From positions 141,632-205,631 of the forward strand of contig NZ_KB891102.1 of assembly GCF_000373365.1 (NCBI RefSeq): a stretch of 64,000 bases of DNA. The letters are read 5' to 3'. Shown here piece after piece: positions 4,327-63,956 of the stretch (position 1 is its first letter; the number at the start of each line of letters is the position of its first letter). The position numbers and the translations under genes were made by a program. This DNA comes from Parafrankia discariae (GTDB lineage Bacteria > Actinomycetota > Actinomycetes > Frankiales > Frankiaceae). Below the pieces are notes generated by a model. The model saw only the letters and a program-made list of their open reading frames with translations, did not search any database and was not told the DNA's origin.

Positions 4327-4644
4327 ATGCCTGATGACGGATCGCCGCCGCCGGGCCCGGCCACGGTGGTGCTGCCGTTCCCGCCCGGGCTGCGGCGGGC
4401 GGCCGTTCCCGAGCTGTGCGCGCGGCTCGACAGGCTCCTGCGCTCCGGCCCGGAAGCCACCGTCATCCTCGACACGACCCCGGTGGGCCGACCGGACGCC
4501 GTCGTCGTCGAGGCGATCGCCCGGCTCGCGCTCGTCGCCCGCAGGCACCGCCGGCCCGTCCAGGTGCACGCGCCACCGCGGGTCTGGGAGCTGCTGGCCC
4601 TCACCGGCCTCGCCCCGCTCGTCGGACGCCCGGGGCAGCCCTAA
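4327..4644 (+). CDS. STAS-domain protein, anti-sigma antagonist-like
   Basis: A 105-residue single STAS domain, the fold of anti-anti-sigma factors of the SpoIIAA type. The ATG is preceded by GGGAGG at 4315-4320. At the position where SpoIIAA-like proteins carry a phosphorylatable serine in a D-S-S-G type turn, this protein reads TPVGRPDAVV, so control by Ser phosphorylation looks lost. Its stop codon overlaps by four bases, tail to tail, with that of the neighbouring sigma factor gene, which suggests but does not prove a regulatory link. Confidence 0.65.
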   Translation: MPDDGSPPPGPATVVLPFPPGLRRAAVPELCARLDRLLRSGPEATVILDTTPVGRPDAVVVEAIARLALVARRHRRPVQVHAPPRVWELLALTGLAPLVGRPGQP

Positions 4645-5666
4645 CCAGGCAGCCCGGCCGGCAGGCCGAACAGCGGGAAGAGACGTTCGACGTCCAGGAA
4701 CGTGTTGATGCCGGCGACCCGCCCGGCCGAGATCTCCAGGACGACCAGGCCCCACGGGTCGTGCCCGGCGCCCGTGGCACTGGGCCGGTACTGCCCGAAG
4801 GCCGGGTGGCCGTTGGCCACGGTGGGCAGCAGCCGCGAGCCCCGGCAGCCGCGGCCGGTGCCGAGCATCCACGCCTGGACGTCGGCCTGGCCGCGCAGCC
4901 ACAGGCCCAGCGGCGGCATCGACATCGTGACGTCCTCGTGCAGCAGTGCCGTGAGGGCCTGCAGGTCGTACCGCTCGAACGCCTCGACGTAGCGGGCGAG
5001 CAGCTCCCGCTGCCCGGCGTCGGCGGGGCGCAGCGGGTCGGCGGTGGAGATCTCCGCCGCGGCGATCGTGGCGCGGGCCCGTTGCAGGGCGCTGTTGACC
5101 GAGGCGACGGAGGTCTCCAGCAGGTCGGCGACCTCGGCAGCCGACCAGTTGAAAACCTCGCGCAGGATGAGCACCGCCCGCTGGCGGGCCGGCAGGTGCT
5201 GCAGCGCGACGACGAACGCGAGCCTGATCGTCTCGCGGCGGGCGGCGAGATCGGCGGGGTCGGCCGCGGCGGCGGCGCTGGAGTACACCTGGCCGTCCGG
5301 CGCGGGCACGATCCAGGCCGTCTCCGGCAGCGGCGCCGGCAGCGGGGAGTCGGCCGCCGACGGGCCGGCGAGATCCATCGGCCGGGCCCGCCGCTGACTG
5401 GCGCCGAGCATCGACAGGCACACGTTCGTCGCGATGCGGTACAGCCAGGACCGCAGCGCGGCCCGGCCCTCGAACCGGTCGAGGCCGCGCCAGGCGCGGA
5501 TCATCGTGTCCTGCACGGCGTCCTCCGCCTCGAACGGCGAGCCGAGCATGCGGTAGCAGTAGCCGGTCAGCTCACGGCGGTACGGCTCGAGAAGGTTCTC
5601 GGCACCCGCCGCCGCCCCGGCGAGAGCGATACCGCCCGTTCCGCCACCCGGAAGCACATCACCCAT
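4641..5666 (-). CDS. ECF sigma factor with SnoaL-like C-terminal domain
   Basis: A 341-residue group IV sigma factor. Region 2 reads YCYRMLGSPFEAEDAVQDTMIRAW with RSWLYRIATNVCL, and region 4 reads LPARQRAVLILREVFNWSAAEVADLLETSVASVNSAL. The last ~120 residues (RYVEAFERYDLQALTALLHEDVTMSMPP onward) form a SnoaL/NTF2-like domain, as in actinobacterial sigma factors of the TIGR02960 type, where this domain often replaces a separate anti-sigma factor. No anti-sigma gene is adjacent. Start at ATG 5666 after AGAGG; a GTG further upstream is possible. It is divergent from glnX. Confidence 0.85.
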   Translation of the reverse strand: MGDVLPGGGTGGIALAGAAAGAENLLEPYRRELTGYCYRMLGSPFEAEDAVQDTMIRAWRGLDRFEGRAALRSWLYRIATNVCLSMLGASQRRARPMDLAGPSAADSPLPAPLPETAWIVPAPDGQVYSSAAAAADPADLAARRETIRLAFVVALQHLPARQRAVLILREVFNWSAAEVADLLETSVASVNSALQRARATIAAAEISTADPLRPADAGQRELLARYVEAFERYDLQALTALLHEDVTMSMPPLGLWLRGQADVQAWMLGTGRGCRGSRLLPTVANGHPAFGQYRPSATGAGHDPWGLVVLEISAGRVAGINTFLDVERLFPLFGLPAGLPG

Positions 5667-5789
5667 CAGAGGCCGCCTCTCTTCGCCTTCCTGACTCACC
5701 GCAAGGCTAGCCAGCACCTCCGACAAAACCACCGCGACCATGACGCGCATCCGACAGCGCGCGCGTCTTTCTCTGCGCCACAGCAGAAC

Positions 5790-5795
5790 TAAGAT
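5790..5795 (+). promoter_or_regulatory. -10 box TAAGAT ahead of glnX
   Basis: TAAGAT matches the actinobacterial TAnnnT -10 pattern and ends 8 bases before the glnX ATG, so the message would be leaderless or nearly so. No clear -35 is visible. Confidence 0.45.
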
Positions 5796-5803
5796 CATCA
5801 GGC

Positions 5804-7213
5804 ATGAGCACGGTGGCAACGCCGTCCGCGGCACCTTCCACCTCGCCGGCCGCCGGCCCGGCGAGGGCCAGCCCGGCGACCGCCGGCGCCGTGACTGCCG
5901 GCGCGGCGCCCGCGGGCGCCGCGGCCGTCGCGGCGGCGGCGGGGGCGATCCGGCGGCGGAGCCGGACCCCACCCGGATTCCTGCGTCTGCTGTCCGTCGG
6001 GCTCGTGCTCGTCCTGCTGGTGACGCTGTCCGTCTGCCTGCTGGCCACGCTCTCCCGCCAGCACGCCGTGGACGCCCTCGCCCACGACTCCGGCGCGTCG
6101 TTCGTCGCGGCGCAGCAGTTGCACGCCGAGCTCTCGGTGGCCGACGCGACCATGGCCCGCGCCTTCCTCGCCGGCGGCGTGGAGCCACCGGCCCAGCGGA
6201 CCGCCTACCAGGAGAGCATCGCCTCGGCGAGCGGGCGCATCGTCGACCTGGCACTCGCCGGCGGCCCGCGCGAGCCGCTGAGCGTCCTGGCGGCCCAACT
6301 GCCGGTGTACACCGGACTGATCGAACGGGCCCGCGCGAACAACCGGATCGGGAACGTCGTCGGCGGCGCGTACCTTCGCCAGGCCTCCGAGCTCATGCAG
6401 ACCAGGATCCTGCCGGCGGTCGACCGGCTGGCCGCCGAGGACGCGGTGGACATCGACCACGGCTACACCCAGGCGACGCGCTGGTACCAGCCCGTCCTCG
6501 TCGGCGTGGCCGCCGCCGCGGCGCTGGCGGCCCTGGTCGCGCTGCAGATCCGGCTGTTCCGGCGGACGCACCGGATGTTCAACCTCCGGCTGGTCGCCGC
6601 GACGGCGCTGGTCCTGATCGCGACGGGTCTCACCCTGGTCGCCTTCGGTGTCTCCCGGGCCCGCCTGGTCGACAGCCGCGACGACGCCTTCCGGCCGATG
6701 ACGATCGTCGCCCAGGCGCGGGTGCTGGCGCTGCGGGCCTGGGGCGACGAGAGCCTCTCCCTGATCGCCCGCGGCAACGGCGACGAGTTCGACGTCGACG
6801 CGCGCCGGGTGACCGCTCGTCTCGGCTACGACCCGGCGGGCCGTCCCGCCGGTACGGGCACGCTCGCCACCGCGGCGGCGCTGGACGGCCCGGACGCGCC
6901 GGGACGGGACGCGCTCGTCCCCGACTGGGAGCGCTACCAGGACACGGCCGTCCGGGTCCGGGACCTGATCCGCGACGTCGGCGGCTTCCAGGACGCCGTC
7001 CGGCTGGCCCTCGGCGAGGGAACCTCGACGTTCACCCGCTTCGACGGCGACGCGGAGACCGCGTTCACCGCGAGCCGCGAGCGTCTCGCCGTTGGGCTGA
7101 GCTCCGCCGCGGGCGCCTATGACGGGGTGGCCGCCGGGACGGGCGCGGCGCTCGGGCTGGCGGCGCTCCTCACCCTGGCCGGGATGCAGTCGAGGATCAA
7201 TGACTACCGGTGA
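5804..7213 (+). CDS. glnX: GlnX-like four-helix membrane sensor protein
   Basis: A 469-residue integral membrane protein with an Ala-rich N-terminal tail and four predicted transmembrane helices (about residues 57-80, 230-252, 268-290 and 445-465), enclosing two extracytoplasmic helical segments of sensor-like type. No kinase or cyclase domain is present. Size, topology and position directly before glnH and upstream of pknG match mycobacterial GlnX, which passes a signal from the binding protein GlnH to the kinase PknG. The identification rests on synteny and topology, since GlnX proteins diverge strongly. Its last 14 bases overlap the glnH start, giving translational coupling. Confidence 0.75.
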   Translation: MSTVATPSAAPSTSPAAGPARASPATAGAVTAGAAPAGAAAVAAAAGAIRRRSRTPPGFLRLLSVGLVLVLLVTLSVCLLATLSRQHAVDALAHDSGASFVAAQQLHAELSVADATMARAFLAGGVEPPAQRTAYQESIASASGRIVDLALAGGPREPLSVLAAQLPVYTGLIERARANNRIGNVVGGAYLRQASELMQTRILPAVDRLAAEDAVDIDHGYTQATRWYQPVLVGVAAAAALAALVALQIRLFRRTHRMFNLRLVAATALVLIATGLTLVAFGVSRARLVDSRDDAFRPMTIVAQARVLALRAWGDESLSLIARGNGDEFDVDARRVTARLGYDPAGRPAGTGTLATAAALDGPDAPGRDALVPDWERYQDTAVRVRDLIRDVGGFQDAVRLALGEGTSTFTRFDGDAETAFTASRERLAVGLSSAAGAYDGVAAGTGAALGLAALLTLAGMQSRINDYR

Positions 7214-8261
7214 CGGCGCCCCGCCGAGGTCGGTGACCGCCCGCCGCACGCCCGCCAGCCGGGTGACGCTCATGCTCGTGGGGCTCGTGATCCTCCTCGG
7301 CGCCTGTGGCACGGTCGGCAGCCCGCTCCCCGAGCAGGCCCGGGCCCTGCCGGCGGCCGGCGCCGCACCGGCTGCCGGCACGACGCCGGGCCCCACCGCG
7401 CCGGGCCGTACCGCACCCGCACCGGGCGGCGGGACGCCGCCGGCGGCCGGCGACTGCGGGGACCCGACGGCCAGCCTGCGCCCGCCCGCGGAGCTGCCGT
7501 CCCCCGGGGCCATGCCGGCCGGATCCCACCTGGAGACCATCGCCCGGCGGGGCTACCTGACCGCCGGCGTACTCGCGGATGTGCCTCCGTTCGGATACAT
7601 CGATCCGTTCGACGGCGAGTTCGCCGGCTTCGACGTCGACGTGGCCCGGCTGATCGGGCGGGCGATCTTCGGCGCGGACGGTCACGTCCGGTTCCGGGCC
7701 GTGACCTACCCGGAACGGATCCCCGTCCTGCGGGACGGCACGGTCGACGTGGTCGTGGCGACGATGACGACGAACTGCGAGCGCCGCGCCCAGGTGGACT
7801 TCTCCGCGGTGTACTACGAGGAGGCGAACCGGGTACTCGTCCCGACCGACTCGCCCTACCAGGGCATGGCGGACCTCGGCGGTCGCCGGGTCTGCACCGC
7901 GGCGGGGACGACGACCCTCGACCACCTCAGGAACGCGGACCCGCGGCCGGTCGCCGTCGCCGCGCCGACCATCGGGGACTGCCTGGTGGAGCTGCAGGCC
8001 GGAGGGGTGGACGCGATCACCACCACCGAGGCCATCCTGGCCGGGATGGTCGCCCAGGATCCGCGGGTCCACATCGTCGGGCCGAGGCTGACGCCCGAGC
8101 CGGACGCCGTCGGCGTGAGCCTGAACCACCCCGATCTGACCCGGTTCGTCAACGGCGTCCTCGCCCGGGCGATCGCCGACGGCAGCTGGACCCGCCTCGC
8201 CCGCACCTGGCTCCCCGGGCTCACCCCCACCCCACCGACCGCCGTCTACCGCGACGAGTAG
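7200..8261 (+). CDS. glnH: GlnH-like amino-acid-binding lipoprotein
   Basis: A 353-residue periplasmic-type solute-binding protein of the family 3 (glutamine/polar amino acid) class. It has a signal peptide ending in the lipobox LLGAC (Cys about residue 36), a Pro/Ala-rich linker, then the binding domain beginning at GYLTAGVLADVPPFGYID, with FAGFDVDVARLIG and DVVVATMTTNCERR typical of the family. Two further cysteines (CTAAG..., DCL) could form a disulfide. No ABC permease or ATPase follows, so a sensory rather than transport role is likely, as for mycobacterial GlnH, which binds Asp/Glu. GAGG lies just before the ATG. Confidence 0.85.
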   Translation: MTTGDGAPPRSVTARRTPASRVTLMLVGLVILLGACGTVGSPLPEQARALPAAGAAPAAGTTPGPTAPGRTAPAPGGGTPPAAGDCGDPTASLRPPAELPSPGAMPAGSHLETIARRGYLTAGVLADVPPFGYIDPFDGEFAGFDVDVARLIGRAIFGADGHVRFRAVTYPERIPVLRDGTVDVVVATMTTNCERRAQVDFSAVYYEEANRVLVPTDSPYQGMADLGGRRVCTAAGTTTLDHLRNADPRPVAVAAPTIGDCLVELQAGGVDAITTTEAILAGMVAQDPRVHIVGPRLTPEPDAVGVSLNHPDLTRFVNGVLARAIADGSWTRLARTWLPGLTPTPPTAVYRDE

Positions 8262-8391
8262 GCCGGTGGGCCCGCGCCGGCGGGAACGGCTGGGGCCGCG
8301 CGGTTCCGGGAGCGGGTGGGTCGTCGTGCGTCGGGCCGGAAACCGGGTGACGACAACACGACAAGTCCCGATCGGAGGAGTACCGACGATC

Positions 8392-8397
8392 TAGCAT
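8392..8397 (+). promoter_or_regulatory. -10 box TAGCAT ahead of mini-lipoprotein gene
   Basis: TAGCAT fits TAnnnT and ends 8 bases before the ATG at 8406, the same spacing as at glnX. It would provide an internal promoter for the pknG half of the island. Confidence 0.4.
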
Positions 8398-8405
8398 CAG
8401 CGATC

Positions 8406-8597
8406 ATGCGGAGGGTCGGACGCGGGCCAGACCGCCGACGCCGGCGGATCATCCCGAGGATCACGCCGAGCACCACGTTCCGGGCGATGGTCCTCGCTGT
8501 CGTCTCCCTGCTCGGCACCACCGGGGCCTGCGGGACCGTGCCGAACGCGCTGCCAACCGCGGGCGGTCCCCTGCCGGCCGCCGCCTACCGGGACTGA
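8406..8597 (+). CDS. 63-residue lipoprotein-like peptide resembling a shortened GlnH
   Basis: This small gene encodes an Arg-rich N-region, a hydrophobic segment and a Cys in GTTGACGTV, then ends in AAAYRD. Its features echo the two ends of GlnH: LLGACGTV and a Pro/Ala linker at the front, and TAVYRDE at the very C-terminus, with the whole binding domain missing. It may be an internally deleted duplicate of glnH that still makes a membrane-anchored peptide. The lipobox (T-G-A-C) is weaker than that of GlnH. It has its own possible -10 box and ends five bases before the next gene. Confidence 0.5.
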   Translation: MRRVGRGPDRRRRRIIPRITPSTTFRAMVLAVVSLLGTTGACGTVPNALPTAGGPLPAAAYRD

Positions 8598-8602
8598 CCC
8601 CG

Positions 8603-9913
8603 ATGGTCTCGCGACGCGACGTGGACGACGCCCTGGCCCGGCTCCGGTCGGAGACGGCGGCCCTGTCGGCGGCCCTGCTCGAGCTCGACACGACCGCGGA
8701 ACAGGTGCTCGGCGACGGCACCCGGCTGCGCGGGCACACCGCCGCCCGCGCCGCGGCGGCCCGGGCCGGACTGGGCTGGCTGTGGGACCGCCACCGCGCC
8801 GTCAGCGAGGTACTGGCCCGGGCCGAGGCTTTGCGCGGCCTGCCGGATTCCCGGCTCGGCGCCCGGCAGGCCGCGCGGGTCGAGGCGTTCCTACGCGAGC
8901 CGCCGTCACACCCGCCCGCGCCGCCGCCCGGGGAGTTGGGAACTGCCCCCGGGCAGCTGGCGGCCGGCGCGGCCGGGGACCTCCTGGGCGGCGCGGCCGG
9001 AGGCCTGCTGGCCGGCACCCGGGAGGTCGCCGCGGCGATCCGTACCGAGTTGGCGGCCATCACCGCGGCCCGGGCCGCGCATCACCGGATTCTTGTCGAC
9101 GCGGCGCGTGGGCTCGCGGAGACCGACGCCGTCTGCGCCCGGCTCGCGATACCCGACCTGCCGGAGCTGGTCGCCGCGCGCGCGGCACTGGACGCCGCGG
9201 CAGCGGCGGTGACGGCCAACCCGCTGGAGACCACACCGGACGACCTCGGGCCCGCCGTCGCCGCGGCTACCCAGGTAGGTGAGCTGGTCGCCGTCCTACG
9301 CCGAACTTTCGACGGGCTGGACGCGGAGCTCGCCGCGGCCGCGGCGATGCTGCGGCGGATCGTGTCGGTCGCGCAGGAGGGTGACCGCGCCGCCCGCACT
9401 GTGGTGGAACGCCTCACCGGTGACCCGACCGGCCTGGTGCGGCTGGGCGACGGATGGTTCGACGGCCCGCGCAGCGGGCTGCGGCCATGGCTGGACCGGC
9501 TGGTGGCGGCCGGTGCCGCAGGTGAGTGGCGGCTGGTCGCCCACGGCCTGGGCGCCTGGCACCGGGTCGCGCGGGAGACGCTCGCCGCGGCGGAGGAGAC
9601 CGTCACGACGAACTCGGCGCCGCTGCGCCGCCGGGACGAGCTGCGCGGCCTGCTGGGCGCGCTGCGCGCGAAAGCCGGCCGGCTCGGCCAGCTCGAGTCG
9701 CCTCATATCGGCGAGTTGTACGAACGCACCGCGACCGCGCTGCGCACCGTCCCGGTTGATCTGGACGCGGCACAAGCCCTGGTCACGGCATTTGGCGACG
9801 CCCTGCTGAACATCCCGCCGCCGCCGCTGCCACCGGTGTCGGTGTCGGTGGCAGCGGCGGGACGGACCGGTGACGGGAGCGGCGAGGCCGCGTGGACGGA
9901 GGAATGCTCGTGA
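8603..9913 (+). CDS. uncharacterised helical protein of the PknG island
   Basis: A 436-residue protein that I do not recognise. It is almost wholly helical by composition, with Ala/Arg/Glu/Leu-rich stretches and coiled-coil-like segments at residues ~1-75, ~130-190 and ~230-270, an early Pro-rich linker (~95-110) and a Pro-rich C-terminal tail. There is no signal peptide or membrane span. Its stop overlaps the pknG start as GTGA, so the two are translationally coupled; a scaffold or adaptor for the kinase is a reasonable inference, not a demonstrated role. Confidence 0.75.
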   Translation: MVSRRDVDDALARLRSETAALSAALLELDTTAEQVLGDGTRLRGHTAARAAAARAGLGWLWDRHRAVSEVLARAEALRGLPDSRLGARQAARVEAFLREPPSHPPAPPPGELGTAPGQLAAGAAGDLLGGAAGGLLAGTREVAAAIRTELAAITAARAAHHRILVDAARGLAETDAVCARLAIPDLPELVAARAALDAAAAAVTANPLETTPDDLGPAVAAATQVGELVAVLRRTFDGLDAELAAAAAMLRRIVSVAQEGDRAARTVVERLTGDPTGLVRLGDGWFDGPRSGLRPWLDRLVAAGAAGEWRLVAHGLGAWHRVARETLAAAEETVTTNSAPLRRRDELRGLLGALRAKAGRLGQLESPHIGELYERTATALRTVPVDLDAAQALVTAFGDALLNIPPPPLPPVSVSVAAAGRTGDGSGEAAWTEECS

Positions 9914-12243
9914 CGGTCAACGGCATCGCCTGCCCGGAACCCGACTGCGACGGAACCATCGAGGACGGCTACTGCGACGTGACCGGGCTGGCGTACCGGC
10001 CACCCGCACCCCACCCGGCACCGGCACCGGCACCCCAGTCCAACCCTGCGGACAGGTCGGTCCCGGGCGGGCCGGGCGGCAGCGGATCCGGCACCGGCGG
10101 GTCTGGCACGAGCGGGTCTGGCACGAGCGGGTCGGCCGCGGGCTCCGCGTCGTGGAGCGCGACGGCGGGCGGCACACCGCGCCGGCGGCGCCGCCCGGGC
10201 CGGGCGCGCCGGTCCCCGAGCCGGCTCGGGGAGGGGCTGGTGGACGTCCCGGACGTGCCGGTCCCCGACCCGGAGTCGCTGCTGCTCACCGACCCGTGCG
10301 TTCCGGAGCACCGGCGGGTGTGCCCGAACCCGAACTGCGAGGCCGAGGTCGGGCGGGCCCGCGACGGCCGGCCGGCCTCCGCCGAGGGTTTCTGTGTCGG
10401 GTGCGGGCATCATTTCTCGTTCGTCCCGGCGCTGCGCGCCGGTGACCGGGTCGGCTCCTACGAGATCGCGGGCGCGCTGGCGCACGGCGGCCAGGGCTGG
10501 GTGTACCTCGCCCGCAACCGCGAGGTCGCGGACGACTTCTGGGTCGTGCTCAAGGGCCTGCTCGACCAGGGCGACCCGGACGCGCAGGCCGCCGCGATCG
10601 CCGAGCGCCGCTTCCTCGCCGCGGTCGACGACCCGGCGATCGTGCGCATCCACACGTTCGTCCGGCACGCGGGTACCGGCTACATCGTCATGGAGTACGT
10701 CGGCGGGACGTCGCTGCGCGAGGTCCTGCGCCGGCGCCGGGCGGAGGCGGGACGTCCCGACCCGCTGCCGGTCACCCAGGCGATCGCCTACATCCTGGCC
10801 GTGCTGCCGGCGTTCGCGTACCTGCACCGCAACGGGCTGGTGTTCTGCGACTTCAAGCCGGACAACGTCATGCTCGGCCGGGAGAGCCTGCGGCTGATCG
10901 ACCTGGGGGCGGTCCGCCGGCTCGACGACGAGGAGGGCGCGTCCTACCGGACCCGCGGCTACTCGGCTCCGGAGGTCGAGACCGAGACACCCACCGTCGC
11001 CTCCGACCTGTACACGGTGGGGCGGACGCTCGCCACGCTGATCCTGAACTTCCGCGGGAACACGAGCACCTACGTCCACAGTCTCCCGCCCGCGTCGGCG
11101 CACGAGGTCCTGGAACGCCACGAGTCGCTCGACCTGTTCCTGCGCCGGGCCACCGCCTGGCTGCCCGAGGACAGGTTCGTCTCCGCCGACGAGATGCGCG
11201 ACGAGCTGCTCGGCGTGCTGCGCGAGATCGTCGCCGCGGAACGGGGCTCACCGGTGGCCGCGCCGAGCCGGCGGTTCACCGGGGACGTCCACCTGACCGG
11301 GGAGAACGCCGACGGGTCGGTCGTCACCCCGCGGTGGGCGAGCCTGCCGCGGCTGCGCGTCGACCCCGAGGATCCGGCCGCGGCCACCCTCGCGGCGCTG
11401 CCCGACAGTTCGCCCGCGCAGCTCGCGACGCTGCTGGCGGCGATCAGCCCGACGACGGTCGAGGTCCGGCTCCGGCTGGCCCGCGCCCACCTCGAGACCG
11501 GGGACGCCGCGGCGGCCACGGCCGTACTCGACGAGGTCGCGGCCGAGGATCCGTTCGAGTGGCGGGTCCACTGGTACCGGGGGCTGCTCGCGCTCGGCGA
11601 CGGCGGCGGCGGAGAACGAGGAGGCGGCCACACGGCCGCGGCGGCCGCCGCGTTCACCCACGTGTACGCGCAGGTACCCGGGGAACTCGCGCCCAAGCTG
11701 GCGCTGGCCGTCACGGCCGAGGCGGCCGGCGAGCGGGACCGGGCCGCCACGCTGTTCGACCTGGTCTCGCGGACGGACGACGGGTTCACCAGCGCCGCGT
11801 TCGGCCTCGCCCGGGTGCGGATCGCGGCGCGGGACCGCGCCGGGGCGGTCGCCGCCTACGAGCGGGTCCCGCCCGCGTCCGCGGCGTACCAGGAGGCCCG
11901 GATCCGGACCGCGCTCGTCCGCGGGACGACGACGGCGGCCGGGGTGCCGCGGCCCGCCGATCTGGTCGCGGCGTCGGGCATCCTGGCCGGTCTGGACGTC
12001 GACCGGCGGCGCCGGGTGGCCCTCGCCCGGGACCTGCTGCGCTGCGCGCTGGACCTGGTCCTCGCCGGAACCGGGCCACCCGAACCGGACGTCGAGGTCG
12101 CCGGGACCGCGTTCCGCGAGGTCGACCTGCGCTTCGGGCTGGAGCGCGCCTACCGCGAGCTGGCCACCCTGGCCCCACTCGCGCGGGAGCGCCACGACCT
12201 GGTGGATCTCGCCAACGCCGTGCGCCCGAGGACGCTGCGGTGA
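9910..12243 (+). CDS. pknG: serine/threonine protein kinase PknG
   Basis: A 777-residue soluble kinase with the PknG layout: an N-terminal metal-binding region with cysteine pairs (CPEPDC near residue 8, CPNPNC and CVGCG near 140-165), a kinase domain (~180-450) and TPR-like helices (~480-770). Kinase motifs are AHGGQGWVYLA (Gly loop), VVLKGL (Lys), FCDFKPDNVML as catalytic loop, lacking the RD arginine as PknG does, and LIDLGAV in place of DFG. I chose GTG 9910, because GGAGG at 9898-9902 sits 7 bases away and GTGA overlaps the upstream stop; the ATG at 9904 is too close to that site. Mycobacterial PknG phosphorylates GarA, and a GarA homologue lies at 63 kb. Confidence 0.93.
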   Translation: MTVNGIACPEPDCDGTIEDGYCDVTGLAYRPPAPHPAPAPAPQSNPADRSVPGGPGGSGSGTGGSGTSGSGTSGSAAGSASWSATAGGTPRRRRRPGRARRSPSRLGEGLVDVPDVPVPDPESLLLTDPCVPEHRRVCPNPNCEAEVGRARDGRPASAEGFCVGCGHHFSFVPALRAGDRVGSYEIAGALAHGGQGWVYLARNREVADDFWVVLKGLLDQGDPDAQAAAIAERRFLAAVDDPAIVRIHTFVRHAGTGYIVMEYVGGTSLREVLRRRRAEAGRPDPLPVTQAIAYILAVLPAFAYLHRNGLVFCDFKPDNVMLGRESLRLIDLGAVRRLDDEEGASYRTRGYSAPEVETETPTVASDLYTVGRTLATLILNFRGNTSTYVHSLPPASAHEVLERHESLDLFLRRATAWLPEDRFVSADEMRDELLGVLREIVAAERGSPVAAPSRRFTGDVHLTGENADGSVVTPRWASLPRLRVDPEDPAAATLAALPDSSPAQLATLLAAISPTTVEVRLRLARAHLETGDAAAATAVLDEVAAEDPFEWRVHWYRGLLALGDGGGGERGGGHTAAAAAAFTHVYAQVPGELAPKLALAVTAEAAGERDRAATLFDLVSRTDDGFTSAAFGLARVRIAARDRAGAVAAYERVPPASAAYQEARIRTALVRGTTTAAGVPRPADLVAASGILAGLDVDRRRRVALARDLLRCALDLVLAGTGPPEPDVEVAGTAFREVDLRFGLERAYRELATLAPLARERHDLVDLANAVRPRTLR

Positions 12244-13361
12244 GCGGGCCCCCGGCGGGGCCGCTGCCCGGCCCCGCGGAACCGGCCCCGGTCACCACGC
12301 CACCCGACTGCCCGCGGTGCGCCACGCCGCCGCTGGCCGGGGACCGGTACTGCGAGCGGTGCGGCGCGGCCCTGACCGCGACGGCTGCCTCCGGGACCGG
12401 CCCCGCTTCGCGGACCGCCGCCGCCACGCCCGCCGTGCTCGGCGTCGGCGTCGGCGTCGACCGGTACGAGACCGACCTCGGCGCCGCCGCCGGGGTGTCC
12501 GACCTCGGCCTCGTCCACCACTCGAACGAGGACGGAATGGGCGTGGCGTTGGCCGCCGGCAGCGGCGGCGGCGCGGTCCACGCGGTCGGCGTGGTCTGTG
12601 ACGGGGTGTCGAGCGCGCGCGGCTCCGGGCCGGCGGCCGTGGCCGCCGCGGCCGCCGCGACGGCGCTGCTGACCGATCGGGTCGAGGCCTGGCGGTCCCG
12701 CGCCGTCCCGGTGCCGGCGGGCCGGCGGGCGCCGGGTCCCGTTCCCCGGCCAGCCCGTCTCGACGGCGGGCCGGCCGGCGCGGTGGCGACACCCGAGATG
12801 GACCGGGACACCGCCGGTGAGATGGCCGCCGCCCTGCGTGACGCCGCGCGGGCGGCGCAGCACGCGGCCGTCGCGGGGGCGGCCGAGCTCGGCCTCTCCC
12901 CCGCCTGCACGTTCGTCGGCGCCGTCGTCGTGGACGCGACGCTGGTCGTGGGCTGGCTCGGTGACAGCCGCGCGTACCTGGTCGACAGCGCCGGGGCACG
13001 CCGGCTCACCGAGGACGACACCGTCGCGGCCGAGGCCGTGCGGGCCGGCCGGCTGGCCCCCGAGCTGGCCGAACGCGGCCGTGACGCGCACGCGATCACC
13101 CGCTGGCTGGGAGTCGGGAGCGCCTCCGCCGTTCCCCGGATCCGCGCCGTCGCGCTGCCGTGCGCCGGACGGGTCGTGCTGTGCAGCGACGGCCTGTGGA
13201 ACTACGCCTCCGCGGCGGAGACGCTCGCCGCCCACGTCGCGGCGTCCGGGCCCGGCGCGCCGGCGATCGACGTCGCGCGGCATCTGGTCGAGGTGGCGCT
13301 GCGCGGGGGCGGCTCCGACAACGTGACCGCGATCGTCATCGACATCCCAGGGAGATCCTGA
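12240..13361 (+). CDS. PP2C-family protein phosphatase with N-terminal zinc ribbon
   Basis: A 373-residue PPM/PP2C phosphatase. After a Pro-rich lead comes a zinc ribbon, CPRC...CERCG (residues ~23-42), then the phosphatase domain with NEDG, VCDGVSS, LGDSRAYLV, LCSDGLWNY and GGSDNVTAIVID, covering the metal-binding Asp residues. The GTG overlaps the pknG stop as GTGA. By position and family it probably reverses phosphorylation by PknG. A Pro/Arg insert of about 40 residues interrupts the domain between the first two motifs. Confidence 0.9.
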   Translation: MSGPPAGPLPGPAEPAPVTTPPDCPRCATPPLAGDRYCERCGAALTATAASGTGPASRTAAATPAVLGVGVGVDRYETDLGAAAGVSDLGLVHHSNEDGMGVALAAGSGGGAVHAVGVVCDGVSSARGSGPAAVAAAAAATALLTDRVEAWRSRAVPVPAGRRAPGPVPRPARLDGGPAGAVATPEMDRDTAGEMAAALRDAARAAQHAAVAGAAELGLSPACTFVGAVVVDATLVVGWLGDSRAYLVDSAGARRLTEDDTVAAEAVRAGRLAPELAERGRDAHAITRWLGVGSASAVPRIRAVALPCAGRVVLCSDGLWNYASAAETLAAHVAASGPGAPAIDVARHLVEVALRGGGSDNVTAIVIDIPGRS

Positions 13362-14656
13362 TGGTGGACTTCAGCCTCGAGGTCAGCCAGAACAAGTACC
13401 TGCCCGAGGGGTCGGGCGAGGTGCACGCCGTCATCACCGTCACCGCGCACGACGTCGGCCCCGGCACCTCCGGGTCGGCCGGAACGGCCGGGTCCGGCGC
13501 CGCGGCGGGCGCCGCCGAGGTCATCCTGCTGGACTGCTCGGGCTCGATGGACTACCCCCACTCGAAGATCATCGAAGCCCGCCGGGCGGCCCAGGCCGCC
13601 ATCGACACGCTGCGCGACGGTGTCGCGTTCGCCGTGGTGGAGGGCACCGGGCACGCCGCGATGGTGTACCCGGCGCGCCAGCAGCTCGTCGAGGCGTCGC
13701 CGCGCACCCGCGAGGCGGCGAAGGCCGCGGTGAAACGGCTGCAGCCCCGCGGCGGCACCGCCATGGGCCGGTGGCTGCTGCTCGCCCGCGACCTGATGGC
13801 CACCCGCCCGGACGCCATCCACCACGCGATCCTGCTGACCGACGGCCAGAACGGCGAGAGCCCCGCCGAGTTCGACGCCGCGCTGGCCGCGTGCGAGGGC
13901 CGGTTCCAGTGCGACTGCCGTGGCGTCGGCGCGGACTGGAAGGTGGCGGAGCTGCGCCGCGTCGCCTCCACTCTGCTGGGCGGCGTCGCGCTGCTGCGCG
14001 AGCCGGCGGAGATGGCGCAGGACTTCCGCTCGCTCGTCGAGCGGGCCCAGGCCCGCGGGATCGATCGGGTCGGCCTGCGGGTGTGGACGCCCCGGGGGGC
14101 GACGGTCCGGTTCCTGCGCCAGGTGTCGCCCGAGCTCGAGGATCTCACCGGGCGGGCCGTCGAGATCAACCCGCTCACCCGGGACCATCCGACAGGGGCC
14201 TGGGCCACCGGGACCCGGGAGTACCACCTGTGCGTCGACGTCCCCCCGGCGGCGGTGGGGAACGAACGGCTCGCCGCCCGCGTCAGCGTCATCGCCGGCG
14301 AGGAGGAGCTCTCCCGCACGGCGGTGCTCGCCGCGTGGTCGGAGGACGACGAGCTGTCGGCCCGCATCGACGAGGTCGTCGCGCACTACACCGGGCAGAC
14401 GGAGCTGGCCCGCGCCGTGCAGGACGGGCTCGCGGCCCGCCGCGACGGGGACGAGGTCAGCGCGGTCACCCTGCTCGGGCGGGCCGCGCGGATCGCGGCC
14501 GCCGCCGACGACGGCGCGACCCTCGAACGGCTGGCGAGGGTCGTCGACATCGACGACGCGGCCACCGGAACGGTGCGGCTGCGCCCCCAGGTCGACGCCC
14601 TGGACGAGATGGACCTGGACGCGGGCTCGACCGTCACCGTGCCCGCCCGGCGGTGA
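13361..14656 (+). CDS. von Willebrand factor A domain protein
   Basis: A 431-residue cytosolic vWA protein. The metal-ion-dependent adhesion site is intact: DCSGSM near residue 60, a Thr in GGTAMG near 130, and LLTDGQNG near 155. Beyond residue ~230 is a beta-rich region of unknown function. The start ATG shares one base with the PP2C stop (TGATG). vWA proteins of this kind in kinase/FHA gene sets act as protein-interaction platforms; the partner here is unknown. Confidence 0.88.
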   Translation: MVDFSLEVSQNKYLPEGSGEVHAVITVTAHDVGPGTSGSAGTAGSGAAAGAAEVILLDCSGSMDYPHSKIIEARRAAQAAIDTLRDGVAFAVVEGTGHAAMVYPARQQLVEASPRTREAAKAAVKRLQPRGGTAMGRWLLLARDLMATRPDAIHHAILLTDGQNGESPAEFDAALAACEGRFQCDCRGVGADWKVAELRRVASTLLGGVALLREPAEMAQDFRSLVERAQARGIDRVGLRVWTPRGATVRFLRQVSPELEDLTGRAVEINPLTRDHPTGAWATGTREYHLCVDVPPAAVGNERLAARVSVIAGEEELSRTAVLAAWSEDDELSARIDEVVAHYTGQTELARAVQDGLAARRDGDEVSAVTLLGRAARIAAAADDGATLERLARVVDIDDAATGTVRLRPQVDALDEMDLDAGSTVTVPARR

Positions 14657-15273
14657 GCCCGGAGGCGGGCCCGCCACCCCCCGCGGCCCGGCTCGACACG
14701 GCGGCGCCGTGTGCCGGGTGCGGGTTCCCCGGGCCGGTGACCGAACCCGTCTGCCGCGCGTGTGGTCACGACGCCGACACCGGCACGGGACCCCGGGCGG
14801 TCGGCGTGGTCCCGTTGGGCCGCACGGCGGTCCCCGCCATACCGGAGGCGGCCGGCGGGTGGACGGTCGAGATCGCTCCCGACCGCGCCTACTTCGCCCG
14901 CGGGGAGAACGACGGCGCCGTCTTCCCCACCGCCGCGGCCGGCCGGATGATCCCGCTGACGGCCCCGCGGGCGGTCGTCGGACGGCGCAGCCGCTCCCGG
15001 GGCCGAGCACCGGAGCTCGATCTCTCGGTGCCCCCGCTGGATCCCGGGGTGTCCCGCGCGCACGCGCTGCTGGAGCGGCACGCCGACGGGACGGTCACGG
15101 TGACCGACCTCCGCTCGGCGAACGGGACCTGGCTCGGCCCGGACGCGGCCCACCTGACCAGGGTGGAGGCGGGCGGCCCGCGGCTGGTGCGCGCGGGCGA
15201 GCACGTCTTCGTCGGCGCCTGGACCCGGCTGAGCGTCACGAACCCGCCCACCGGTACGCGACCCGGACCTTGA
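14653..15273 (+). CDS. FHA-domain protein with zinc ribbon
   Basis: A 206-residue protein with a zinc ribbon, CAGC...CRACG (residues ~19-38), then a C-terminal FHA domain: VVGRRSRSRG, VSRAHALLE and LRSANGTWLG supply the Gly-Arg, Ser-x-x-His and Asn-Gly residues that bind phosphothreonine. The GTG overlaps the vWA stop as GTGA. It is likely the reader of Thr phosphorylation in this island, for instance of autophosphorylated PknG. It is the last gene of the run; its stop codon touches the palindrome that begins the next promoter. Confidence 0.88.
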   Translation: MSPEAGPPPPAARLDTAAPCAGCGFPGPVTEPVCRACGHDADTGTGPRAVGVVPLGRTAVPAIPEAAGGWTVEIAPDRAYFARGENDGAVFPTAAAGRMIPLTAPRAVVGRRSRSRGRAPELDLSVPPLDPGVSRAHALLERHADGTVTVTDLRSANGTWLGPDAAHLTRVEAGGPRLVRAGEHVFVGAWTRLSVTNPPTGTRPGP

Positions 15274-15300
15274 CCTGAAGTCAGGTTTAACCCTTAGTGT
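15270..15300 (+). promoter_or_regulatory. palindromic promoter of the FMN reductase gene
   Basis: A -35 like TTGACC (15270-15275) and a -10 like TAGTGT (15295-15300) are 19 bases apart. Between and over them lies a perfect inverted repeat, ACCTGA-AG-TCAGGT (15273-15286). A palindrome in an over-long 19-base spacer is the arrangement used by MerR/SoxR-family activators. The ATG follows the -10 by 7 bases, so the transcript is probably leaderless. Confidence 0.6.
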
Positions 15301-15307
15301 CGCCGCC

Positions 15308-16009
15308 ATGAGCGATCTGACGATCTCCGGCCAGCGCGGGACGGCCGAAACCCGGCCCGCGGACACCACCCCCGGGGCCGCGCGGCACACCCCGGACACC
15401 ACCCCGCTGCGGGTCGCGGTCGTGCTCGCGAGCGTCCGCGCCGCCCGGTTCGGCCCGGTGGTCGCCGGGTGGTTCGCCCGCCAGGCCGCGCGGCGCCCCG
15501 ACGTCACCGTGGACGTCGTCGACCTGGCCGGGCTCGCCGGCATCGGCGGCGTGGACACCGCCGTCGTCGCCCCGGCCAACACCAGCACCGCCGACGCCGC
15601 CGACACCGGCCCGATGACCTGGGAGTCCTTCGCGGACCGCGTCGGCGCCGCCGACGCGGTCGTGATCGTCACCCCGGAGTACAACCACAGCTTTCCCGGG
15701 CCGCTCAAGACCGCCGTCGACGCGCTCGGCCGGCAGTGGCACGCCAAGCCCGTCGGGTTCGTCGCCTACGGCGGGATGTCCGGCGGGCTGCGCGCCGTCG
15801 AGGCGTTGCGGGTGGTCTTCTCCGAGCTGCACGCGGTCACGATCCGCGACACGGTCAGCTTCCACAACGCCTGGAGCCGGTTCGGCGCGGACGGCGAGCC
15901 GCTCGACCCCGACCAGGTGAACGCCGCGGCGACGACGCTGCTGGACCAGCTCTGCTGGTGGGGGTCCGCCCTGCGCGACCGGCGGCGTACCCACCCGTAC
16001 CAGCGCTGA
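15308..16009 (+). CDS. NAD(P)H-dependent FMN reductase family protein
   Basis: A 233-residue flavodoxin-fold protein. VVLASVRAARFGPVV binds the FMN phosphate, VIVTPEYNHSFPGPLKTAVD is the signature of the NADPH-dependent FMN reductase family, and VGFVAYGGMSGGLRAVE follows it. The first ~35 residues are a Thr/Pro-rich extension. Members reduce FMN, quinones, chromate or azo dyes in the cytoplasm. The promoter suggests control by a MerR-type redox or drug sensor; no such regulator is adjacent. Confidence 0.9.
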   Translation: MSDLTISGQRGTAETRPADTTPGAARHTPDTTPLRVAVVLASVRAARFGPVVAGWFARQAARRPDVTVDVVDLAGLAGIGGVDTAVVAPANTSTADAADTGPMTWESFADRVGAADAVVIVTPEYNHSFPGPLKTAVDALGRQWHAKPVGFVAYGGMSGGLRAVEALRVVFSELHAVTIRDTVSFHNAWSRFGADGEPLDPDQVNAAATTLLDQLCWWGSALRDRRRTHPYQR

Positions 16010-63293: not shown

Positions 63294-63956
63294 TCACCGA
63301 ACCCCGACCCCCCCGTAGGTCGCGCCCGTCAGGAAGACCAGGCGGAACTTGCCGATCTGGACCTCGTCGCCGCCGGTGAGCTCCGCGGAGTCGATCCGCT
63401 CCCGGTTCAGGTAGGTGCCGTTCAGGCTGCCGACGTCACGCACGGAGAATCCCTTGGTGTAGGGCGAGCGGTGGAACTCGGCGTGCCGCCGGGAGACGGT
63501 GACATCGTCTAGGAAGATGTCGCTCTCCGGATGGCGCCCGACGGTCGTGAGATCGGCGTCGAGCAGGAACCGGCTGCCCGCGTTGGGGCCGCGCTTGACG
63601 ACCAGCAGGGCCGAGCCGGGCGGAAGCGCGTCGACGGCGGCGACGGCGTCGCGCTCGGTCGACTCGTCGACGTGGTCGCCCTCGATGCCGGAGAGCGCGG
63701 CGGCCAGGTTGAGCGTCGACGTCTGCTCCGCGGGCCGCTCCGGCGCCACGGGCTCGCCCGGACGCACCAGAGGCGACCCGCACCGCGCGCAGTACAGCGC
63801 GTCGGACGGGTTCTGCTGGCCGCACCTCGTGCAGAACACAGTCTCGTCCGCTTCCTGCCGGATGCCCGCAGGCGGGAGCCCGGCCGCTCGGTCCGCCGCC
63901 CTCACGGCGGCAGGAATGTTCCCCAACAGGGGGTTTGACCCGGTGTGACCAGGCAT
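63294..63956 (-). CDS. garA: GarA/OdhI-type FHA protein with zinc ribbon
   Basis: A 220-residue FHA protein very close to mycobacterial GarA in its core: LPPGSALLVVKRGPNAGSRFLLD, TVGRHPESDIFLDDVTVSRRHAEF, VGSLNGTYLNRE and GDEVQIGKFRLVFLTG. GarA/OdhI binds and controls 2-oxoglutarate dehydrogenase and glutamate enzymes and is released by PknG or PknB phosphorylation of N-terminal threonines; here AEQTSTLNL is the candidate site. Unlike GarA, it has an N-terminal zinc ribbon, CTRC...CARC (residues ~42-60). ATG 63956 is the first start; a shorter form cannot be excluded. Confidence 0.92.
   Translation of the reverse strand: MPGHTGSNPLLGNIPAAVRAADRAAGLPPAGIRQEADETVFCTRCGQQNPSDALYCARCGSPLVRPGEPVAPERPAEQTSTLNLAAALSGIEGDHVDESTERDAVAAVDALPPGSALLVVKRGPNAGSRFLLDADLTTVGRHPESDIFLDDVTVSRRHAEFHRSPYTKGFSVRDVGSLNGTYLNRERIDSAELTGGDEVQIGKFRLVFLTGATYGGVGVR

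Follow-up and report, generated by a model that had tools for sequence, protein, structure and literature searches.

What is the operon of PknG, a serine/threonine kinase, in Parafrankia discariae: a three-gene core extended locally, or an older and longer arrangement, and what would its additional genes do with the kinase? The literature on the PknG operon describes glnX-glnH-pknG (PMC8546545; PMC6069109; PMC9769921). The locus we analyzed lies in a stretch of 64,000 nucleotides (assembly GCF_000373365.1, contig NZ_KB891102.1, positions 141,632 to 205,631), hereafter the window, in which positions 5804-15273 hold a row of seven genes, all on the + strand: glnX, glnH, a gene for a helical protein (hel), pknG, and genes for a protein phosphatase 2C (PP2C), a von Willebrand factor A (vWA) protein and a forkhead-associated (FHA) protein. 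The order of this row is conserved, the active sites of its enzymes are intact, and it divides in other loci into a sensor and an output part. Our favored reading, which we hold tentatively and at just under an even chance, is that the row is a nutrient-sensing phospho-switch operon of two separable modules, in which the FHA protein would read a phosphorylation state that PknG and PP2C set on the vWA protein. The features are as follows.

5804..7213, + strand: glnX, GlnX-family signal transduction membrane protein, 469 amino acids (aa) (NCBIfam NF058618)
7200..8261, + strand: glnH, lipoprotein solute-binding protein, 353 aa (SBP_bac_3)
8406..8597, + strand: remnant of a second glnH, 63 codons (intact counterpart at the same place in Parafrankia soli)
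8603..9913, + strand: hel, helical protein outside any named family, 436 aa (AlphaFold2 model and position in relatives)
9910..12243, + strand: pknG, zinc ribbon, rubredoxin domain, Ser/Thr kinase and tetratricopeptide repeats (TPR), 777 aa (PknG_TPR, Pkinase, PknG_rubred)
12240..13361, + strand: PP2C phosphatase with an N-terminal zinc ribbon, 373 aa (PP2C domain)
13361..14656, + strand: vWA protein of ArnB layout, 431 aa (4FX5 profile match, VWA and VWA_3_C domains)
14653..15273, + strand: zinc-ribbon and FHA protein, 206 aa (FHA domain)

To ask how general this row is, we collected the best 80 of 137 relatives of the window's PknG from named genomes, a set biased to its kind. Gene profiles were built from these 80 loci, of which fifty-six are complete, with at least 5 kb upstream and at least 4.5 kb downstream of pknG. 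By gene-presence thresholds that we set ourselves, all seven genes stand in the same order on one strand in 54 of the 56, the exceptions being L068 and L081; of the 24 loci cut by contig ends, 6 still show all seven. Holders of the full row include Frankia, Cellulomonas, Actinoplanes, Oerskovia, Agreia and one Tsukamurella. The initial annotation had proposed that the sensor genes are physically coupled to the PP2C, vWA, FHA and helical-protein genes and had suggested comparing gene order; rather than being scattered in close relatives, the genes keep their order in these loci, and thus the grouping is not incidental.

A more even sample of the class (196 genomes) contained PknG_TPR over the cut-off in 65 genomes and 84 loci (84 of 90 rows used). 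A vWA gene lies downstream of PknG on the same strand in 43 of these 84, and in 38 of them glnX is also on the same strand within 12 kb. The distribution by family is uneven: f16 21/25, f22 5/5, f1 (the family of P. discariae itself) 11/23, f15 4/10, f11 1/1, f37 1/1, f23 0/1 and f4 0/18, or 43 of 66 loci outside f4 against 0 of 18 within it. Family f4 is the one that holds the mycobacteria: its member G070 has a PknG that scores 1392 bits against 2PZI, a PknG structure from M. tuberculosis. The vWA protein was present in 40 of the 196 genomes, and 7 of its 50 rows (50 of 51 used; one second fragment of a gene was dropped) have no PknG within 12 kb. In a sample drawn across the phylum it was found at E <= 1e-50 in 4 of 149 genomes, all of them from this same class. 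It also occurs in draft genomes labelled Solirubrobacteraceae (L013), Acidimicrobiaceae (L043) and Acidobacteriaceae (L078), the last of which may be mis-binned, as it groups with Tsukamurella in the tree described below.

We built a quick, unrooted maximum-likelihood tree from 51 PknG sequences. In it, four rows, from Mycobacterium, Tsukamurella and Nocardia (two), form one clade with 100% support in the Shimodaira-Hasegawa-like approximate likelihood-ratio test (SH-aLRT). This clade is nested in one of 21 rows (99%), and the operons of the remaining members there are long or partly reduced. A second kinase of the P. discariae genome, from a three-gene locus on contig C136, groups with three rows (97%), and sits on the Frankia side with just 81%. 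Forcing five three-gene or lone-pknG rows together cost 328 log-likelihood units (approximately unbiased test, p-AU 1e-76; 47 rows), though the p-value is not that of a clean test, as we chose the group with a first tree already in view and omitted four long-branched rows. On the tree, the pattern of loci with and without the vWA gene takes a minimum of four changes to explain. The three-gene form thus probably has more than one origin, and the simplest reading is that the mycobacterial form is a reduced long form. As no root was inferred, the tree alone does not give the direction of this change, which we read from the nesting together with how widely the long form is spread. The initial annotation was right that the core glnX-glnH-pknG is recognizable, as the GlnX subfamily, SBP_bac_3 and PknG domains all match above their cut-offs. 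Its view that a mycobacterial core has been extended here is not supported, and we rejected it on the family counts, the nesting and the forced-group test, and further on the separate glnX-glnH-pknG locus in the same genome.

Other loci, two of them in P. discariae itself, show how the row comes apart. On contig C136 (L083, 6844-15032), glnX, glnH and pknG lie on one strand and a second glnX-glnH pair converges on them; PP2C, vWA and FHA genes were not found at this locus, and the one kinase there may be served by two sensors, the upstream same-strand pair and the convergent pair. On contig C119 (L088, 7289-15200), hel, a kinase gene lacking the TPR domain, PP2C, vWA and FHA genes follow one another, with no GlnX/GlnH in the 19 kb fetched. 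The catalytic loop of this kinase reads FCDLAPGN, with Ala in place of the catalytic-loop Lys of the window's PknG, so by its sequence it may be a pseudokinase. L112 holds the same hel-kinase-PP2C-vWA-FHA block, likewise without sensor or TPR, and in L084 and L091 glnX and glnH sit together, as a block, at the 3' end of the row. Single members are also missing: L107 lacks PP2C, and in L106 PP2C is the sole output gene seen, the contig being cut upstream. In L110 (G016, contig C1, about 537-541 kb), the gene of a very divergent PknG-like kinase directly precedes that of a vWA protein, also divergent; hel is matched weakly at this locus, and PP2C and FHA were not found. A similar PknG-vWA pair, 178-306 bases apart, occurs in three f16 genomes (G016, G050 and G096). 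Overall, GlnX and GlnH, the former encoded no more than 12 kb away, on the same strand, in 64 of the 84 class-sample loci, tend to accompany the TPR-bearing kinase, and hel, PP2C, vWA and FHA tend to accompany each other; the window joins both. Such a split fits a published proposal in which GlnX signals to PknG through its TPR domain (PMC8546545; PMC6069109).

Within the window the genes are closely packed. The initial annotation counted eight co-directional genes, all joined by overlaps; we find seven, the sole eighth candidate seen being the 63-codon remnant of a second glnH, and overlaps at five of the six junctions between the seven. Those five are exactly as it named them: 14 bases between glnX and glnH, GTGA at 9910 (hel/pknG), 12240 (pknG/PP2C) and 14653 (vWA/FHA), and TGATG between PP2C and vWA, with the A at 13361 shared; the start codon of pknG is GTG. 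The sixth junction, glnH to hel, is a gap of 341 bases that holds the open reading frame (ORF) 8406-8597. In related loci, a start codon is set for a 4-base overlap at hel-pknG in 64/71, vWA-FHA in 58/68, pknG-PP2C in 52/73, glnX-glnH in 46/67 and glnH-hel in 41/68, counts that record a start codon at the overlap position and are no proof of its use. Such starts are rare at PP2C-vWA (4-base 9/69; 1-base, the window's type, 6/69). Judged from these sequences, overlap-type junctions recur in related loci beyond chance. Third-codon-position G+C is 0.88-0.97 across all seven genes. A consensus scan of 5550-15420 gave no terminator-like sites, which is weak evidence given the 0.9 expected by chance, and a promoter consensus scan gave none either, which is scarcely informative at this G+C.

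The vWA protein matches 4FX5, a vWA protein of Catenulispora acidiphila, with 588.8 bits in a profile search, is 49% identical to it over 408 residues and gives a Z of 53.0 in VIA; it is an ortholog of this crystallized protein. Its AlphaFold2 model (mean predicted local distance difference test score, pLDDT, 90.7) predicts a beta-sandwich split by the vWA domain, a helix bundle, and a C-terminal end with conserved Ser/Thr. Over residues 2-427 the model aligns with ArnB in the ArnAB complex (8S05 chain B) at Z 29.9 and 3.3 Å over 360 residues, and with the ArnB paralog vWA2, later named ArnE, at Z 26.9; VIA entries ranked 4 to 50 reach Z 20.6-24.2, mostly across about 175 residues. Prediction and the ortholog 4FX5 show the ArnB fold of this protein. 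The idea that the family PF18571, present in the vWA protein, is the archaeal ArnB_C family found no backing in the control genomes (below).

We then mapped conservation onto these proteins, in protein numbering, from alignments with score thresholds of our choosing: PknG >500 (n=99), PP2C >200 (n=86), vWA >300 (n=83) and FHA >120 (n=83), with gapped rows and degenerate kinases of the C119 type omitted from the percentages. In the vWA protein, the metal-ion-dependent adhesion site (MIDAS) residues D58, S60, S62, T133 and D161 are present in 100% of sequences. Eight Ser/Thr columns are conserved in at least 95%, two of them at the C terminus (S423, 82/83; T426, 81/83), and the T424 column is Thr or Ser in 75/83. 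A disordered tail was considered and rejected, as the pLDDT of 66 belongs to residue 431 alone and residues 421-430 average 83. Conservation of the segment 339-350, where sandwich and bundle join, is similar to that of the MIDAS loops. The ArnB linker between these two parts touches the zinc ribbon of ArnA (PMC12852372), and by topology segment 339-350 would correspond to that linker.

The FHA protein carries an FHA domain (39.3 bits, cut-off 20.7) whose phosphothreonine-binding residues are conserved: G110, S134, N157 and G158 at 100%, R111 at 98% and H137 at 94%. Its ribbon, C20-x2-C23-x10-C34-x2-C37, has the same C-x2-C-x10-C-x2-C spacing as the ArnA ribbon, by the cysteine positions given in PMC12852372. 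An extra, more N-terminal ribbon is found in 70 of the 83 FHA proteins and is lacking in the window's. A phmmer search of the protein against PDB sequences gave no match at E <= 0.01. It does not appear to be the OdhI/GarA of this genome: NF041660 gives it only 18.9 bits, and the best match of that model lies elsewhere in the window, at 63324-63677 on the minus strand (193.2 bits against a cut-off of 200), in a putative GarA/OdhI homolog with an N-terminal zinc ribbon.

The active-site residues of the two enzymes are intact. PknG matches PknG_TPR (PF16918, 224.3 bits), Pkinase (PF00069, 93.2) and PknG_rubred (PF16919, 74.2), all over curated cut-offs, and its catalytic K215, D314, K316, N319 and D331 are intact and, rounded, at 100%. 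Its N-terminal ribbon is found in 86 of the 99 sequences by a pattern that admits Cys or Thr at the fourth place, where the window has Thr. The PP2C domain scores 34.2 bits (cut-off 20.3), with an Stp1-type model reaching 91.8, under its cut-off of 230; the metal ligands N96-E97-D98, D121, D317 and D360 are, again rounded, at 100%, and a ribbon like that of the FHA protein is present in 83 of 86 sequences.

On the sensor side, GlnX scores 358.9 bits with the subfamily model NF058618 (cut-off 250) and 154.4 with the narrower equivalog NF041460, protein kinase G-activating GlnX, far under the cut-off of 780. GlnH has the family-3 solute-binding domain SBP_bac_3 (96.7 bits) and, as read from its sequence, an N-terminal hydrophobic stretch ending LLGACG, which marks it as a putative lipoprotein. 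The helical protein is modelled as nearly all helix, with long helices (mean pLDDT 90.5). It had no curated family match above cut-off in a domain library search and nothing at E <= 0.001 in Foldseek, and its top VIA hit, EzrA, has Z 10.4 at a root-mean-square deviation of 20 Å, under the level meaningful for helical models; this lack of structural matches does not establish a new fold. ORFs of about 370-510 aa occupy its position in related loci, and its profile was found in 54 of the 56 complete loci. The sensor-less loci L088 and L112 carry hel, and none turned up in L085, L086 or L092, each of the three-gene form, which places it on the output side rather than with the sensor.

How might these parts work together? 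In Sulfolobus, ArnC phosphorylates ArnB in its helix bundle, ArnA reads the mark, its ribbon binding loosely and its FHA domain tightly, and PP2A reverses it, with nutrients setting the balance (PMC6509490; PMC7472852; PMC12852372). In the phospho-switch that we favor, GlnH would bind an amino acid outside the cell and GlnX would carry the signal across the membrane to the TPR domain of PknG, a scheme that has been put forward, with evidence, in mycobacteria and Corynebacterium and that homology suggests here. The helical protein, the PknG kinase, PP2C, the vWA protein and the zinc-ribbon FHA protein would form the output module. There, PknG would phosphorylate the vWA helix bundle or the conserved C-terminal Ser/Thr (S423, T424, T426); the ribbon of the FHA protein would hold it loosely to the vWA protein until its FHA domain locks on phosphothreonines; and PP2C would undo this locking, as in the ArnC/ArnB/ArnA/PP2A set. 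The helical protein would act as a scaffold that keeps the parts together, and our guess is that the ribbons on kinase, phosphatase and reader could all dock onto the vWA protein. Phosphorylation, binding, co-transcription, the role of the helical protein as scaffold and any step beyond the vWA-FHA pair are our inference. A more far-reaching version, which we regard as unlikely, makes the row a full actinobacterial counterpart of the ArnAB switch on an amino acid sensor, with the vWA protein as the ancestral PknG substrate, marked on its helix bundle or at S423/T424/T426, read by the ArnA-like FHA protein and reset by PP2C, and with mycobacteria having lost the output arm while keeping GarA/OdhI control.

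Several observations weigh against this phospho-switch. The module split is loose, with 20 of the 84 PknG_TPR loci lacking a same-strand glnX within 12 kb, some of which are explained by contig ends or by glnX on the opposite strand. L103 and L104 hold FHA without vWA, and L109 and L110 vWA without FHA, so the pair is not obligatory. The exact ribbon spacing is found in just 64 of 83 FHA proteins, and such zinc-ribbon spacing is common among proteins. PF18571 matches none of the 14 control genomes, which presumably include S. acidocaldarius, and for this reason we say that the vWA-FHA pair may work like ArnAB, not that it is ArnAB. The conserved C-terminal Ser/Thr of the vWA protein are fairly ordered, with residues 421-430 at the mean pLDDT given above and 4FX5 aligned through model residue 429, and their modification would first require them to be released; buried ArnB sites have been proposed to be unmasked by stepwise phosphorylation (PMC12852372). 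The authors of that paper hold that ArnB-fold proteins elsewhere are mostly not multi-phosphorylated. Finally, known PknG acts on GarA/OdhI, of which this genome has a putative homolog, and PknG may serve that alone.

This last point leads to a rival, in our view quite unlikely, in which GarA/OdhI stays the PknG substrate, PP2C dephosphorylates it, and the kinase is localized by accessory scaffolds, namely the vWA and FHA proteins. The homolog at 63324-63677 lies in the same window, the phosphatase Ppp of C. glutamicum dephosphorylates OdhI (PMC9769921), and the phosphorylated N terminus of PknG recruits its FHA substrate (PMC8546545), all of which fit; however, the second, three-gene PknG locus on C136 could serve GarA, and under this rival the invariant MIDAS, the conserved C terminus of the vWA protein and the sensor-less output module on C119 are left without a role. 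It is improbable that the vWA, PP2C and FHA genes are instead a complex-assembly or conflict (defence-like) module, kin of other kinase-PP2C-vWA triads, recruited to an amino acid sensor. PADLOC at E <= 1 matches the kinase alone (mostly PD-T4-6 kinases, also mad6 and MkoA) and none of the other six proteins, PP2C and vWA included, though whether its library covers all such triads was not checked; no effector gene is evident in the operon, and the order is very stable (54/56), unlike that of variable conflict loci. We find it very improbable that the genes are grouped by shared expression control only, their proteins having no action on each other. The loss of single members in some lineages would fit such a grouping, which is harder to reconcile with the order in 54 of 56 loci, with sensor and output blocks that appear as units in differing orders, and with the recurrent overlap starts.

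The remnant at 8406-8597 keeps a lipoprotein signal and the last residues AAYRD, its inside being deleted. The nearest PknG found, 88% identical, is that of Parafrankia soli (L003), whose locus has an intact glnH2 at 7576-8583 with N and C termini like those of the remnant. By this comparison, 8406-8597 resembles a glnH2 remnant, and we rejected it as an independent small lipoprotein gene. In L003 (region about 7046-8583), glnH1 is reduced to a stub and glnH2 is intact; the window is the reverse, and the Frankia loci L005 and L009 keep both copies. On this evidence, the window and P. soli appear to have lost opposite copies of a tandem glnH, and the sensed ligand may have changed through this reciprocal loss. 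The row is flanked upstream by a divergent gene at 4641-5789 (minus strand), which we take from its sequence to encode an ECF-type (extracytoplasmic function) sigma factor, and by a gene at 15308-16009 (+ strand), 34 bases 3' of fha, whose product is presumably like NADPH-dependent FMN-reductases.

Parts of this arrangement are known from other systems. The type VI secretion threonine phosphorylation pathway (PpkA, PppA, Fha) likewise brings a kinase, a PP2C phosphatase, an FHA reader and a vWA domain into one system; the window differs in having the vWA part as a separate, ArnB-like protein and GlnX/GlnH as its sensor. The Mycobacterium and Corynebacterium operon shares the GlnX-family protein, the solute-binding lipoprotein and the PknG kinase with TPR, in the same order; the window adds the helical, PP2C, vWA and zinc-ribbon FHA genes, and no f4 locus has a downstream vWA (0/18). 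The rubredoxin domain is common to the window and mycobacterial PknG, and is lacking in Corynebacterium PknG (PMC8546545). The ArnA-ArnB-ArnC-PP2A archaellum switch of Sulfolobus acidocaldarius has a three-domain vWA protein, a zinc-ribbon FHA protein, a Ser/Thr phosphatase, a Ser/Thr kinase with a TPR-like part, and nutrient input (PMC6509490; PMC7472852; PMC12852372), but the window has its kinase and phosphatase genes in the row, PP2C instead of PP2A, and a membrane sensor attached. In actinobacterial GAP1-N2 systems, a zinc-ribbon kinase, an active PP2C and an adjoining standalone vWA gene occur together (PMC7159879), and the linkage of kinase, PP2C and vWA is thus already known in actinobacteria, in another setting; the associated genes there are others, and the section of that paper on them names no GlnX/GlnH, TPR or FHA. 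The two papers that compare 4FX5 with ArnB or ArnE state no function for this structure and mention no kinase operon in the passages on it. No title or abstract describing the long operon was found in a literature search that mostly excluded subscription journals, and the STRING neighbourhood in Fig. 2B of PMC6069109 may show more genes than three.

PknG has been studied as a metabolic, virulence-linked kinase on the basis of the mycobacterial and corynebacterial operon of three genes, for which a single pathway, GarA/OdhI, is well known. Should the long operon be the older form, then half of the system has been overlooked: a phosphatase of its own, a reader protein and a vWA protein of ArnB fold. 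It then becomes testable which targets PknG has besides GarA/OdhI, what the crystallized 4FX5 does, and whether archaea and bacteria share one switch design for nutrient sensing, built of a kinase, a phosphatase, a vWA scaffold and a zinc-ribbon FHA reader.

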